A stretch of 58,881 bases of DNA from positions 1 to 58,881 of the forward strand of contig JAFQVS010000074.1 of the NCBI GenBank assembly GCA_017407905.1. Reading direction: 5' to 3'. The notes under the pieces were generated by a model. It was not told the origin of the DNA. It searched no databases and saw nothing but the letters and a program-made list of their open reading frames with translations. The translations under genes and the position numbers were made by a program. Positions 35,757 to 41,216 of this stretch are shown here, piece after piece (positions within the stretch are counted from its first letter, which is position 1; each line of letters begins with the position of its first letter). Origin of the DNA: Bacteroidaceae bacterium. Lineage in GTDB: Bacteria > Bacteroidota > Bacteroidia > Bacteroidales > Bacteroidaceae.

Positions 35757-35786
35757 TTGTTTTAACTAAAAATATTCATACATTTG
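35757..35786 (+). promoter_or_regulatory. Promoter of the threonine leader/apgM/thrC operon
   Basis: TTG (35757-35759), a 19-base spacer and TACATTTG (35779-35786) fit the Bacteroidetes consensus. The leader peptide start codon follows 23 bases after the -7 element, leaving a very short 5' leader. Confidence 0.8.
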
Positions 35787-35808
35787 CCAACGACACGTAA
35801 AAAAACAG

Positions 35809-35916
35809 ATGAACAGCAACAGCCTACATACAACGATAATTCTCACTACTACCATAGCTTCTGCTATTGGTAGCACCACAAGCTGTACATCTACCACAAT
35901 TACCCTTAGGGGTTAG
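35809..35916 (+). CDS. Threonine-rich leader peptide (attenuator) of the apgM-thrC operon
   Basis: A 35-codon frame from ATG to TAG, directly behind a consensus promoter and an A-rich initiation site. It encodes 11 threonines (residues 8, 9, 13-15, 23, 24, 27, 29, 30, 32) and 5 isoleucines (10, 11, 16, 20, 31), the composition of thr operon leader peptides such as E. coli ThrL. Downstream lie the predicted homoserine kinase and threonine synthase genes. Within the frame, 35852-35858 pairs with 35863-35870 (one bulge), and 35902-35906 pairs with 35915-35919 across the stop codon. I infer that ribosome stalling at Thr/Ile codons controls transcription of the operon. A strong intrinsic terminator was not identified. 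Confidence 0.82.
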   Translation: MNSNSLHTTIILTTTIASAIGSTTSCTSTTITLRG

Positions 35917-36071
35917 GGTTATATTTCTTGTTTCTACGCGAAACATCTTTTCGGTACTTTTCTTATTTTTTACAACAGCAGACAATTGCAGCAAGCAGTT
36001 TGCATTATTAACCCGGTAGCACGTAAAATATTACGATGCACAGCCACCCTTTATACAAAAAGGGAAAAATT

Positions 36072-37295
36072 ATGACAAAAAAAATGAAACATATTATAAT
36101 TTTAGGAGACGGGATGGCCGATTGGCCAATAGATTCATTAGGCGGAAAAACAATTATGCAGGCAGCCCACACCCCCTATATGGACAAGCTGGCCCGCGAG
36201 GGGCGTTGCGGCCGTCTCATCACCGTTGCCGACGGCTTCCACCCCGGCAGCGAGGTTGCCAATATGTCAGTACTCGGCTACGACCTGCAAAAGGTCTATG
36301 AAGGGCGCGGCCCGTTAGAGGCTGCCAGCATAGGCGTCGAGCTCGAGAGCGACGAGCTTGCTTTGCGCTGCAATATTGTCAGCATAAACGACCACATACT
36401 GAAGAACCACTCGGCCGGACACATTACCACCGCCGAGGCCGACATTCTTGTAAAGTATCTGCAAGAACATTTGGGCAACGAGCGTGTGCGCTTTCACACG
36501 GGCATACAATATCGTCATCTGCTTGTAATAAAAGGGGGCGACAAACGCATCAGCTGCACCCCTCCGCACGATATTCCGGGAGAGAATTATATACCCCATC
36601 TTGTAAAAGCCGACACTCCCGAGGCCGAGCCGACAGCCCGCCTCGTAAACGAGCTTATCGTAAAGTCGCAGCAGTTGCTTGCCCGCCACCCGCTGAACAT
36701 ACAGCGCGTGAGCGAGGGGAAAGACCCCGCCAACAGCATCTGGCCGTGGGGCGGCGGCTACCGTCCGCAGATGGAGAGCCTCGGCAGCAGATTTCCGCAG
36801 ATTAAGAGCGGTTCGGTAATATCGGCCGTTGACCTTATCCGCGGCATAGGGCGATACGCAGGACTGCGCGTACTCGACGTCGAGGGGGCGACAGGCCTTT
36901 ACGACACAAGCTACGAGAATAAGACCGCGGCACTGCTCGAAGCACTAAAAGAGGACGATTTTGTCTATCTGCACGTCGAGGCCAGCGACGAGGCGGGACA
37001 CGAGGGTAACGTCGCCCTCAAGATACGCACTGTCGAGAATCTCGACAGTCGCGCCGTGGGCCCCATCTACGAGGCCGTCAAGCAGTGGGACGAGCCCGTG
37101 GCAATAGCCATCCTCCCCGACCACCCCACCCCCTGCAAACACCGCACACACACTGCCGAACCCGTCCCCTTCCTCGTGTGGCATCCCGGGATAACCCCCG
37201 ACAGCGTCGGCACATTTGACGAGGCGGCAGCAAATGACGGCAGCTACGGACTTATGCAAAGAGACGAGTTTATAAACGCATTTATGAATAATTGA
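36072..37295 (+). CDS. Predicted homoserine kinase, ApgM (cofactor-independent phosphoglycerate mutase) family
   Basis: The ATG at 36072 gives 407 residues; the ATG four codons later (MKHIIILGDGMADW) is equally possible. The alkaline-phosphatase-superfamily core is clear: LGDGMADWP metal site, HPGSEVANMSVLGYD with the acceptor serine, then EASDEAGHEGN and LPDHPTPC metal ligands. This family is often called phosphoglycerate mutase, but the branch next to thrC is proposed to be a homoserine kinase (TIGR02535). The Thr/Ile-rich leader peptide upstream and thrC 13 bases downstream strongly support homoserine phosphorylation in threonine synthesis. No aspartokinase/homoserine dehydrogenase gene is adjacent. 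Confidence 0.88.
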   Translation: MTKKMKHIIILGDGMADWPIDSLGGKTIMQAAHTPYMDKLAREGRCGRLITVADGFHPGSEVANMSVLGYDLQKVYEGRGPLEAASIGVELESDELALRCNIVSINDHILKNHSAGHITTAEADILVKYLQEHLGNERVRFHTGIQYRHLLVIKGGDKRISCTPPHDIPGENYIPHLVKADTPEAEPTARLVNELIVKSQQLLARHPLNIQRVSEGKDPANSIWPWGGGYRPQMESLGSRFPQIKSGSVISAVDLIRGIGRYAGLRVLDVEGATGLYDTSYENKTAALLEALKEDDFVYLHVEASDEAGHEGNVALKIRTVENLDSRAVGPIYEAVKQWDEPVAIAILPDHPTPCKHRTHTAEPVPFLVWHPGITPDSVGTFDEAAANDGSYGLMQRDEFINAFMNN

Positions 37296-37308: not shown

Positions 37309-38637
37309 ATGAAATACCATAGCACAAACGGAATAGTCGGCAACATAAACCTCGACGAAGCAGTGATTAAGGGCCTTGCAGCCGATAAAGGACTTTTTAT
37401 GCCCGAAAATATAAAGCAGTTGCCCGACGAGTTTTTTGAGAGAATAGACAAAATGAGCCTCGACGAGGTTGCCTACCGCGTCGCCGACGCTCTTTTTGGC
37501 GAGGATATTACCGCCTCCGACCTAAAAAAGATTGTCAGCGAGACACTCAGTTTCAATATCCCCCTTGTGTGCGTAAAAGAGAACATCTTTGCGCTCGAAT
37601 TGTTCCACGGCCCCACGCTGGCCTTTAAAGACGTAGGCGCGCGCTTTATGGCTCGAATGTTGAGGCATTTTATCAAAGGCCGCGGCAGCCGCGTAAATGT
37701 ACTTGTAGCAACGTCGGGCGACACAGGCAGCGCCGTCGCCAACGGTTTTTTGAATGTTGAGGGCGTACACGTATACATTCTGTACCCCAAAGGCAAGGTA
37801 AGCGACATTCAAGAAAAACAATTTACCACTTTGGGACATAATATCACAGCATTAGAGATTGACGGTTGCTTCGACGATTGTCAGGCGCTGGTCAAGAGCG
37901 CATTTATGGACGAGGAGCTAACAAGCAAGATGTTCCTCACAAGCGCAAACTCCATAAATCTTGCACGCCTACTGCCACAATCGTTCTACTATTTCTGGGC
38001 CTACGCGCAACTGAAAAGTATGGGGCTCGAACGAGAGCTCGTCGTATCGGTTCCCTGCGGTAATTTCGGCAATCTCACCGCAGCGCTCTTTGCCAAGCGA
38101 ATGGGGCTTCCCATCAAGCGTTTCATTGCCGCCAACAATAGCAACGACGTTGTTTACAACTACCTACAAACAGGCAAATATAATCCGCGCCCATCGGTGG
38201 CAACAATTGCCAATGCAATGGACGTTGGCTCCCCCAGCAATTTTGCGCGCATAATGACACTATACAACGCCGACCACGCCTCGGTGTGCGCCGATATTAC
38301 GGGTGCCGCCTACAACGACAATCAAATTGCCGAAGCCATAGAAAAAGCATACAAAGAGACAGGCTATCTGCTCGACCCGCACGGAGCCTGCGCCTATCTT
38401 GCCACCAACGAGGGCCTCGGCGAGGGCGAGACGGGAGTATTCCTCGAGACGGCACACCCCGCAAAATTCAAAGAGACAATCGAGAGCATCCTACAACAAG
38501 AGATTCAAATTCCCGATGCGTTACAGAAGTTTATCTCGGGCAACAAGCAGACAGTCGAGCTTAGTGGCAGTTTCAAGGAATTCAAGGAATATCTTCTGAA
38601 AGAAGTTCTTCACGAAGGTAGCGAGATATATTATTAG
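37309..38637 (+). CDS. thrC: Threonine synthase
   Basis: A 442-residue PLP enzyme. K107 in GPTLAFKDVGARF is the Schiff-base lysine, followed by VLVATSGDTGSAVA, which binds the cofactor phosphate. The start MKYHSTNG and the C-terminal HPAKF segment are typical of ThrC. It converts O-phosphohomoserine to threonine. It follows apgM by 13 bases in the operon preceded by the Thr-rich leader. A small stem (about 38648-38667) lies after the stop. Confidence 0.95.
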   Translation: MKYHSTNGIVGNINLDEAVIKGLAADKGLFMPENIKQLPDEFFERIDKMSLDEVAYRVADALFGEDITASDLKKIVSETLSFNIPLVCVKENIFALELFHGPTLAFKDVGARFMARMLRHFIKGRGSRVNVLVATSGDTGSAVANGFLNVEGVHVYILYPKGKVSDIQEKQFTTLGHNITALEIDGCFDDCQALVKSAFMDEELTSKMFLTSANSINLARLLPQSFYYFWAYAQLKSMGLERELVVSVPCGNFGNLTAALFAKRMGLPIKRFIAANNSNDVVYNYLQTGKYNPRPSVATIANAMDVGSPSNFARIMTLYNADHASVCADITGAAYNDNQIAEAIEKAYKETGYLLDPHGACAYLATNEGLGEGETGVFLETAHPAKFKETIESILQQEIQIPDALQKFISGNKQTVELSGSFKEFKEYLLKEVLHEGSEIYY

Positions 38638-38978: not shown

Positions 38979-41216
38979 ATGAAAAACAGAGCATTGCTTG
39001 GTTGCCTGCTGACAGCGGCAGCCACGGCCATCTGTGCACAAACAGAAAAAAGCACAAAAGACAGCTTGCAGATGTACAATCTGCAAGAAGTAGAAATTAT
39101 GTCAACAAGAGCCACCGCGACCACCCCCGTTGCCTACACAAACATCAGCAGCGAGCAGCTGAAAGCACAAAATGTGGGGCTCGACTTTCCCTACCTCATC
39201 AGTATGACACCCGGCGCACTAACCACAAGCGACGCGGGAGCGGGCATTGGCTACACAAGCCTGCGCATACGCGGTACCGACGGCACACGCATCAACGTAA
39301 CAGCCAACGGAATACCCATAAACGACGCCGAGAGCCACACGGTCTTTTGGGTTAATCTGCCCGACCTTGCATCCTCGGTAAAGGACGTACAGATTCAGCG
39401 AGGAGTGGGAACATCCACCAACGGCGCAGGCTCGTTCGGAGCAAGCGTCAATCTTCAGACAAGCAGTATGAGCGCAAGACCCTACGCCTCGGTAAGCGCC
39501 TCGGCAGGCTCGTTCGGCACAAACAAGCAGACGATAAAGGTGGGCTCGGGCCTTTTGGCCGAGCATTGGAGCATCGACGCACGCCTCTCGCACATAGGCA
39601 GCGACGGATACATCGACCGCGCCTCGACCAACCTAAAATCGTACTATCTTCAGGCAGCATACTACGGCAATAACAGCGCACTAAAATTCATCACTTTTGC
39701 CGGCGACGAGCAGACCTACCACGCTTGGAATTACGCCTCGAAGGAGGAGCTCGCCACCTATGGCCGACGCTACAATTCGTGCGGATATATGTACACCGAC
39801 GCCGACGGTAAGGCCCACTACTACGACGACCAGACAGATAATTACGTTCAGCAAAATTATCAGCTACTCTTCGACCACCACTTTTCCAACGCCCTCAGCC
39901 TGAACGTCGGCCTGCACTACACAAAGGGCGACGGCTACTATCAAGAGTATAAAACAGCACGCAAGCTCGTCGAGTATGCCCTTTTGCCCTTTGAATACAA
40001 CGGCGAGAGCGTAAAAAAGAGCGACCTTGTGCGCCGCAAGGCAATGGACAACCATTTTGGAGGCGGAATATTCTCGCTCAATTATAAGAACGAGCGCATC
40101 ACAGCCTCCATAGGCGGAGCACTCAACCGCTACGAGGGCGACCATTTCGGCAACGTCCTTTGGGTGAAAAATTACATCGGAGCGCTCGATGCCGACCACG
40201 AGTATTATCGCAACAAAGGCAGTAAGGACGACGGCAACATATACCTTAAGGCCGACTATCGTCTGACGAAAAATCTGCACGCATACGCCGATGTTCAGTA
40301 TCGCCACATAAGCTACAAGATTGACGGCTGCAACGACAAATGGAACGACGCCACAGGGGCACTGCAAACACTCGCCGTGGACGAAAAATTCGACTTTTTC
40401 AACCCAAAGGCCGGACTATCGTGGCAAATAAACCGCAGCAACCGTCTCTTCGGCTCGCTCAGTGTGGCCCACAAAGAGCCCACCCGCAACAACTACACCG
40501 ACGGCAAGCTCGCCCAGCCCCCCACAGCCGAGCGCCTCACCGACTACGAGCTTGGCTACACATATAGCGGCCGCTATCTGCACGCAGGAGTAAACCTCTA
40601 CTATATGGACTACAAAGACCAGCTTGTGCTCACGGGCGAACTTAACGAGATTGGCGAGCCCGTAGCCGACAATGTCCCCGAGAGCTACCGCGCAGGCATC
40701 GAGCTTATGGCGGGCGTGCATCTGCCCTTCGGCCTTGTGTGGGAGGCAAACGCCACATTCAGCCGCAACCGCATAAAGAATTTCACCGAGGTGCTGTACG
40801 ACGACGACACATACGAGCGCTGGGACATCAGCCACGGCAGCACGCCAATATCTTTCTCGCCCGAAGCTATCGTAAACAACACCCTCGGATACAGCTACAA
40901 AGGCGCCTCACTGTCGCTGCACACACAATATGTCAGCAAGCAGTATATGAGCAACGCCCGACAAAAAGAGCATCTGCTCGACGCCTATTTTGTGAGCAAC
41001 CTTTACGCCTCATACACATTCAAGCTGCGCAGCGTCAAGAGCATCACCGTCGGCCTTAACATCTACAACCTCTTCGACGAGGAGTACGAGAATAACGGAT
41101 ACGCCGGCAGCGGCTGTTACACCGACGGAAGCGGAGTAAAAAACCGTTACAACTACGCAGGATACGCCGCGCAAGCAGAAACAAACTTTATGGGACACGT
41201 AACAATAGAGCTTTAA
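38979..41216 (+). CDS. TonB-dependent outer-membrane receptor for thiamine
   Basis: The 745 residues contain a signal peptide (cleavage near ICAQ, residue 21), a plug domain of about 45-165 (SSEQLKAQNVGLDFPYLIS, RIRGTDGTRINVTANGIPIND), and a 22-strand barrel ending TNFMGHVTIEL with a terminal-Leu/aromatic pattern. It follows a TPP riboswitch and precedes pnuT and a thiamine pyrophosphokinase gene, the arrangement of the Bacteroidetes OMthi-pnuT-tnr3 operons, so thiamine is the expected ligand. There is no SusC-type N-terminal extension, which fits a vitamin receptor rather than a glycan transporter. Confidence 0.92.
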   Translation: MKNRALLGCLLTAAATAICAQTEKSTKDSLQMYNLQEVEIMSTRATATTPVAYTNISSEQLKAQNVGLDFPYLISMTPGALTTSDAGAGIGYTSLRIRGTDGTRINVTANGIPINDAESHTVFWVNLPDLASSVKDVQIQRGVGTSTNGAGSFGASVNLQTSSMSARPYASVSASAGSFGTNKQTIKVGSGLLAEHWSIDARLSHIGSDGYIDRASTNLKSYYLQAAYYGNNSALKFITFAGDEQTYHAWNYASKEELATYGRRYNSCGYMYTDADGKAHYYDDQTDNYVQQNYQLLFDHHFSNALSLNVGLHYTKGDGYYQEYKTARKLVEYALLPFEYNGESVKKSDLVRRKAMDNHFGGGIFSLNYKNERITASIGGALNRYEGDHFGNVLWVKNYIGALDADHEYYRNKGSKDDGNIYLKADYRLTKNLHAYADVQYRHISYKIDGCNDKWNDATGALQTLAVDEKFDFFNPKAGLSWQINRSNRLFGSLSVAHKEPTRNNYTDGKLAQPPTAERLTDYELGYTYSGRYLHAGVNLYYMDYKDQLVLTGELNEIGEPVADNVPESYRAGIELMAGVHLPFGLVWEANATFSRNRIKNFTEVLYDDDTYERWDISHGSTPISFSPEAIVNNTLGYSYKGASLSLHTQYVSKQYMSNARQKEHLLDAYFVSNLYASYTFKLRSVKSITVGLNIYNLFDEEYENNGYAGSGCYTDGSGVKNRYNYAGYAAQAETNFMGHVTIEL

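Follow-up and report, generated by a model that had tools for sequence, protein, structure and literature searches.

A probable threonine-codon attenuator of the apgM-thrC operon in Bacteroidaceae, apparently without the usual strong terminator

The apgM-thrC locus and its leader

The window, that is, the whole stretch of 58,881 nucleotides of Bacteroidaceae bacterium contig JAFQVS010000074.1 analyzed here, contains two genes of threonine biosynthesis on its forward strand, where the parts of their leader described below are also located. The first, apgM (36072..37295), encodes a product above the cut-offs of PRK04200 and TIGR02535 (NCBIfam 'proposed homoserine kinase'); its start may be 36084, since the ATG at this position is the counterpart of MKHIIILGDGMA, the apgM start in the relatives. 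The second, thrC (37309..38637, TIGR00260), encodes threonine synthase. If the function proposed by TIGR02535 is right, apgM is the homoserine kinase gene and both final steps of threonine synthesis are encoded by this operon. A bifunctional thrA is present elsewhere in the genome, on a different contig (G000:C30:4917-7352; L174, L182), with no recognisable Thr leader or H1 hairpin (see below) upstream of it by the criteria applied to the relatives.

The promoter upstream of apgM (35757..35786) consists of TTG at 35757-35759 and TACATTTG at 35779-35786, and is of the Bacteroidota -33/-7 type. It is followed by a leader peptide ORF (35809..35916), translated as MNSNSLHTTIILTTTIASAIGSTTSCTSTTITLRG and ending in TTITLRG before a UAG stop codon (35914..35916). 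A first-pass annotation of this DNA had proposed a 35-codon frame with 11 Thr and 5 Ile codons, which the translation bears out, located 23 bases behind a promoter; the promoter stands, whereas the spacing from TACATTTG to the ATG is 22 bases. The 155 bases of leader that it gave between the frame and apgM are correct for the ATG at 36072.

Two hairpins are associated with the end of the frame. H1 (ACCC-UUAG-GGGU, 35902..35913) is built on the last Thr codon and touches the stop codon, and H2 (UGUUUC-UACGC-GAAACA, 35929..35945) begins 12 nt behind this stop. H2, overlooked in the first-pass annotation, is the best conserved RNA feature besides H1. Among the pairings suggested there, the one at 35902-35919 contains H1 as its core, which is present in all 13 leaders of the genus; the one at 35852-35870 is, by eye, not general in the genus, and GGGTTA with TAACCC (35916 and 36009) could be made out by eye in no leader but those of the window and of L003, its nearest relative. 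Compared with its shuffles, the leader RNA is more stably folded (z -4.2).

The Thr richness of the frame is itself weak evidence, and it is the position of the frame plus its conservation that exceeds chance and carries the case. The window has 389 ATG frames of 15-80 codons, of which one exceeds the leader frame in Thr fraction and others come near, even if frames of at least 30% Thr never contained more than six Thr in 10 block-shuffled windows. Two Thr-rich short frames, at 40189 and 39760, lie inside a TonB-receptor gene and look like chance, a warning against relying on Thr content alone.

The leader is conserved in the genus

Within the genus, apgM was found in 12 of 44 genomes and the H2 motif (at most one mismatch) in the same 12, with 14 places each, and the reversed control pattern of the motif gave no match in the 44 genomes. 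The other 32 genomes, many of which are incomplete MAGs, may have lost the route via apgM to threonine. Before counting, L014 was dropped as identical to L003, its contig reading as an inverted duplicate, and L035-L039 were dropped as the same loci as genus rows. The contig shared by L003 and L014 (G013:C59, 266142 bases) carries two identical thr loci at mirror positions, which suggests an assembly artefact in the form of an inverted duplication.

All 13 non-identical genus leaders have a Thr-rich frame at the same place, with 21-43 codons and 6-12 Thr. The frame and its Thr enrichment, whose loss in close relatives the first-pass annotation had named as evidence against an attenuator, are thus kept in 13 of 13 leaders, and the conservation extends through Bacteroidaceae. 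The number of Ile codons ranges from 0 to 7, with none in L004, L032, and L015. The expectation that Thr and Ile codons would both be conserved is therefore right for Thr and wrong for Ile, which is absent from three of the 13 and is replaced by Met in most leaders where thrA is the first gene. In L007, the usual stop is missing and the frame continues into H2.

Overall, a short Thr-rich frame lies upstream of Thr biosynthetic genes and its Thr codons are conserved in place, Ile only partly, as expected of an attenuator. It is very unlikely that the frame arose by chance or encodes a small functional protein instead of being a sensor. The other Thr-rich short frames of the window would be in line with a chance origin, but the frame, the position of its stop, and its co-occurrence with Thr genes are all kept, the codons change along with the downstream gene (see below), and within the genus alone the length ranges from 21 to 43 codons.

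Distribution in the family, order, and phylum

We scanned named genomes for apgM and used the best 80 of 583 confirmed loci. The genus relatives among these 80 are 'Bacteroidaceae bacterium' MAGs from ruminant gut, and the rest are mainly Bacteroides, Phocaeicola, and Mediterranea. The element occurs in 64 of the 80 loci, either ahead of thrA, where the operon is thrA-apgM-thrC, or immediately ahead of apgM; the motif as searched is absent from the other 16, several of which are cut contigs. A typical Bacteroides leader has the C-terminal end HTVTSMCTMTLRG before its stop codon. A covariance model, R1, matched 71 of 301 family genomes, with one place each, and 67 of these matches are strong. 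Three of the four weak ones are Thr/Met leaders with H1 before thrA that have no H2 motif (L146-L148), and the last one (L145) is unrelated; these four were left out of the leader counts. After removal of 23 of 112 leaders, which had identical 63-nt stretches or were too short, 89 leaders remained.

In these 89 leaders, the leader frame contains 5.4 Thr per 20 codons, compared to 0.8 and 0.4 in the other two frames, a difference biased upward by the choice of the Thr-richest frame. The strict promoter form, TTG-N18-22-TANNTTTG, is found upstream of 30 leaders, compared to 0.7 expected in 89 from base shuffles, and is absent upstream of the other 59; in the genus, 11 of 13 leaders have it (all except L009 and L034).

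In the order, 13 weak model matches were obtained. Five of them (L162, L163, L164, L166, L168) precede aspartokinase genes behind a leader-like frame with H1, although Thr is scarce in L162 (3 of 28) and an ATG start is not present nearby in L166 and L168; the other eight do not fit the element and were discarded. A sample of 108 genomes of the order yielded thrA in 40. The region upstream of thrA was taken in 38 cases, two of them in the family to which the window belongs. In 12 of these regions, a frame with Thr codons at its end, such as TTP(W)G, is followed by an H1-type hairpin, and 10 of these 12 have at least three Thr in the last 15 codons. No H1 of this kind is seen in the remaining 26 regions.

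A phylum search with a second model, R2, matched 14 of 395 genomes at E up to 0.01. The 11 weak matches comprise five before hisG, two Thr leaders without H2 before aspartokinase, and four that are unrelated. Thr-rich leaders with an H1-like hairpin and no H2 motif were observed before aspartokinase genes in family f124 (L223, NAYTTITTLRG; L225, LTGNTTTPWG). Searching the phylum for H2 by pattern alone was rejected as a way to show a widespread repeat, as the pattern matched 16 places in 16 of 345 genomes and its reversed control even more (about 25 places); besides the window, only the hisG sites L234-L236 fit among the 15 other matches.

Sequence and pairing of the two hairpins

In its general form, ACCC-NNNN-GGGU, H1 comprises the last Thr codon plus the next codons and ends at the stop codon. 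It is paired in 93.3% of cells over the 89 sequences, with three of its five pairs invariant. The place of the stop is kept while all three stop codons occur (TAG 38, TAA 27, TGA 24), and in 83 of the 89 leaders the Y of the H2 loop follows it at a distance of 23-29 nt.

H2 is a hairpin of 6-7 bp with the loop URCGY, whose invariance is partly built in because some of the leaders were collected via this motif as a regular expression. Its stem covaries, as illustrated by UGUUUC/GAAACA, GUGUAUC/GAUUCAC, GCGUAUC/GAUAUGC, CGUCUC/GAGACG, and GCGUUCC/GGAACGC, and one middle pair is open in 45 of the 89 leaders. H1 and H2 together are paired in 87.6% of cells, compared to at most 57.4% when the alignment is slid. 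Both sides have changed in 27 cells (mean of the shuffles 11.5, reached by 0 of 500) and in five pairs (mean 2.2, reached by 3 of 500), with shuffles that ignore relatedness. A first set of 65 sequences showed weaker covariation, with two pairs and a covariation score that did not exceed that of shuffles. When each leader was compared separately with its shuffles in three groups, starting with the genus, the H2 arms reach p<0.05 in 0 of 13, 0 of 21, and 0 of 38 leaders, and p<0.2 in 9 of 13, 1 of 21, and 23 of 38.

Outside the genus, a second hairpin is located directly behind H2 in 38 of 59 leaders (L042, L045, L048, L050, L073, L081, and 32 further loci), with arms that vary strongly yet stay complementary (GCUUAC..GUAAGC, GUCUGC..GCAGAC, GCCUGU..ACAGGC). 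Further hairpins of varying sequence occur between H2 and the gene start in L006 (e.g. GAATTCATCGCACGATGAATTC), in L004, and at 36047-36064 of the window.

Control codons change with the first gene

The first gene behind the leader is thrA in 71 and apgM in 17 of the 89 leaders, the first gene of L157 being unassigned. A Met codon is present among the last 13 codons in 66 of 71 thrA-first leaders, compared to 1 of 17 apgM-first leaders (Fisher's test, 2e-12, for rows that are not independent), and the single apgM-first case, L106, has its Met behind H1 in an extended frame. Ile is found in the same region in 11 of 71 thrA-first and 8 of 17 apgM-first leaders. A tree of apgM with 71 rows requires three label changes for the apgM-first state, forced by starred branches, and two of these three origins are less sure (L150, L151, and L154 form long branches).

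ThrA makes homoserine for both Met and Thr, while apgM and thrC serve Thr and, through it, Ile. The codon swap thus makes metabolic sense, as ThrA feeds two pathways and apgM-thrC only the threonine branch. Five thrA-first leaders have no Met in their last 13 codons. They include L040 and L041, the nearest thrA-first sisters of the window genus, suggesting that the loss of Met there probably preceded the loss of thrA.

His leaders and a candidate pause site

Six leaders with His codons and the H2 motif were found before hisG (L218, L219, L220/L234, L222, L226/L235, L236), all in family f121, outside Bacteroidales. Five are weak matches of model R2, and the sixth, L236, comes from the pattern scan. 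The gene downstream of L218 is hisG by TIGR00070 (NCBIfam), and the others start with a near-identical protein by eye. These leaders, such as MNGFNTYHLHLHHHHHVVIR before its stop codon, have a strong hairpin of His codons at the end of the frame, followed by UGUUUCUACGYGAA.

The elemental pause consensus of RNA polymerase is G at -10, a pyrimidine at -1, and G at +1. The 5' arm and loop of H2 (G-UUUCURCG-Y|G) have the same arrangement, and the third pair of the H2 stem has its 5'-side G in 89 of 89 leaders, with four other pairs changed on both sides. Comparison with the consensus suggests that this part of H2 could be a polymerase pause site, located in the window at 35930..35940 with G(-10) at 35930, Y(-1) at C35939, and G(+1) at G35940. 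The distance from the stop codon to this candidate pause is 17-19 nt in the His leaders, compared to 25 in the Thr leaders, while the distance from the first hairpin is, by eye, similar, at about 22 and 25 nt, respectively.

Search for the off-switch

In 18 of the 89 Thr leaders, at least six U in eight positions are preceded by a hairpin of -10 kcal/mol or better, compared to 1 of 89 base-shuffled ones. The same script detected such a terminator in 10 of 11 Bacteroid-trp leaders used as positive controls, which were taken from 15 RF01692 matches and include three below the family cut-off. The best terminator-like hairpin of the window has only -4.1 kcal/mol at this setting, and -6.8 kcal/mol with at least five U. 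The earlier remark that the leader has no strong GC-rich terminator therefore holds against this control.

Of the 18 candidates, 16 correspond to T1, an extension of H1 by flanking pairs, for example GUACUACCC..GGGAUAGUAU-UUUUG in L004. T1 might itself be a weak intrinsic terminator, covered by a ribosome stalled on the Thr codons of its 5' arm, and the thrA leaders L185, L191, and L196, from other families, appear by eye to have full terminators on their Thr codons. Nevertheless, the pairs that T1 adds to H1 do not surpass shuffles (mean z of 0.25, 1.13, and 0.38 for the three groups), for which reason T1 was dropped as a universal terminator. In addition, T1 reaches at best -6.8 kcal/mol in the window, the His leaders have no U-run after H1, and the conserved H2 would sit beyond the decision point, which makes this explanation quite improbable.

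A second candidate is H3 (UAC.CGAAA/UUUCG.GUA, 35935..35956, -4.1 kcal/mol), a hairpin exclusive with H2 that precedes a U-rich stretch (35958-35972). In a classical attenuator, H2 would serve as the antiterminator and H3, formed by the 3' arm of H2 with UUUYRGYA and followed by a U-run, as the terminator, with a ribosome positioned on the stop codon hindering H2 and so favoring H3. In agreement with this, GAAA is common to H2 and H3, eight of 13 genus leaders have H3 at -4.1 to -5.2 kcal/mol, and UGC..UGAAA/UUUCA..GCA becomes UAC..CGAAA/UUUCG..GUA in the window. With longer arms, H3 has a mean z of -1.08 in the genus (p<0.05 in 2 of 13 leaders, p<0.2 in 7 of 13), and the 12 nt between the stop and H2 are about the reach of a ribosome at the stop, given as 12 nt in an excerpt of PMC4833913. 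However, H3 is weak in the other five genus leaders, its shorter-arm form is not above shuffles in the genus (mean z -0.21, p<0.05 in 1 of 13), and it reaches p<0.05 in none of the 21 and 38 leaders of the other two groups. Moreover, five of the six His leaders lack a U-run right behind H2. H3 as a universal terminator was dropped after these shuffles, being at best weak in the genus and unsupported outside it, and we regard the classical arrangement as unlikely.

The switch might also not be transcription at all, leader translation altering the folding or the decay of the leader and thereby translation or mRNA stability. Strong terminators are indeed few, further hairpins are seen by eye near the start codon, and Bacteroidota are not known to depend on strong Shine-Dalgarno sites. 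On the other hand, no conserved pairing reaching the apgM start was noticed in the leader comparisons, and the gap between H2 and the gene varies widely. This explanation thus also appears rather improbable.

A model for the leader

Since the relatives keep a Thr-codon leader and two hairpins, the leader would turn the genes on when threonine is short. From these sequence comparisons, we think it probable that the leader is a ribosome-mediated, leader-peptide attenuator of the apgM-thrC operon, and that it is one of a family of leaders found repeatedly in Bacteroidaceae and, using other codons, in more distant Bacteroidota. The reading of the first-pass annotation, a Thr attenuator, is supported by the frame and its conserved Thr codons, from which we infer regulation by threonine. 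The sensor part of the leader is well supported, and our best reading is that the attenuator architecture, apparently without the usual strong terminator, is new.

In the proposed mechanism, RNA polymerase would pause in the H2 loop, about 25 nt past the stop codon, awaiting the leader ribosome. When Thr-tRNA is scarce, the ribosome would stall on earlier Thr codons, H1 could fold just behind the paused polymerase, and transcription would continue. When Thr is plentiful, the ribosome would pass through H1 to the stop codon and keep H1 open, and transcription would end at or soon after H2, possibly by a weak U-rich intrinsic stop or by Rho.

Comparison with known systems

Amino-acid attenuation is known in detail in enterobacteria. 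The window-type leader resembles the enterobacterial ThrL attenuator in having a Thr/Ile-rich leader peptide directly before threonine genes. It differs by the presence of H2, by the lack of a GC-rich terminator of the ThrL kind, and by the genes controlled, which are apgM-thrC or thrA-apgM-thrC, most thrA-first leaders using Thr plus Met. No covariance model among all Rfam families, including T-box, riboswitches, and Thr_leader (presumably the Rfam name for the enterobacterial thr operon attenuator), matched the window, nor did any match four Bacteroides-type loci. The sole sub-threshold match in the window, to RAGATH-30 on the minus strand, falls far short of the cut-off of that family and was discarded.

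Bacteroid-trp RNA (RF01692), which an excerpt of PMC2864571 lists, is a leader-peptide attenuator of the same phylum with control codons in Trp runs. It differs by its strong terminator, found in 10 of the 11 loci examined (of 15 matches) and missing in most Thr leaders, and inspection of its 11 sequences by eye revealed no ACCC/GGGU hairpin and no UUUCURCGYG motif. The window genome itself has no RF01692 match at E up to 0.01.

Amino-acid attenuation is barely described for Bacteroidota in the open-access PMC matches listed, none of which was seen to deal with a thr leader of this phylum. In the same phylum, excerpts of PMC9723704 treat leader-peptide attenuation in Flavobacterium psychrophilum in general terms, with short leader ORFs before amino-acid operons, and excerpts of PMC7366714 describe short ORFs in long 5' UTRs of Bacteroides thetaiotaomicron, reminiscent of leader peptides; neither set of excerpts names a thr leader, H1 or H2, or a Met/Thr switch. 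According to an excerpt of PMC2965389, leader-peptide systems had been shown, before its Firmicutes cases and ermC aside, only in Proteobacteria and Actinobacteria. PMC4833913 describes a peak of short leader genes at a small distance from the structural gene for several taxa, Bacteroidetes included.

Implications for Bacteroidota

With the terminator missing, one has to ask how transcription is ended, and a pause at H2 offers a concrete site to examine. That Met codons are absent where thrA left the operon amounts to a natural experiment, and the sensor idea can be tested in culturable species such as B. fragilis. More tentatively, Bacteroidota might possess their own class of modular attenuators, in which codons tuned to the first gene (Thr and Met where this is thrA, Thr with or without Ile where it is apgM, and His where it is hisG) are combined with a hairpin on the control codons and, at a set distance, the pause hairpin GUUUCURCGYG, without a canonical intrinsic terminator. 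If this is true, leaders in front of thrA would respond to both end products, Thr and Met, together, and a single-copy RNA element would let gut Bacteroides sense their threonine and methionine supply at once.
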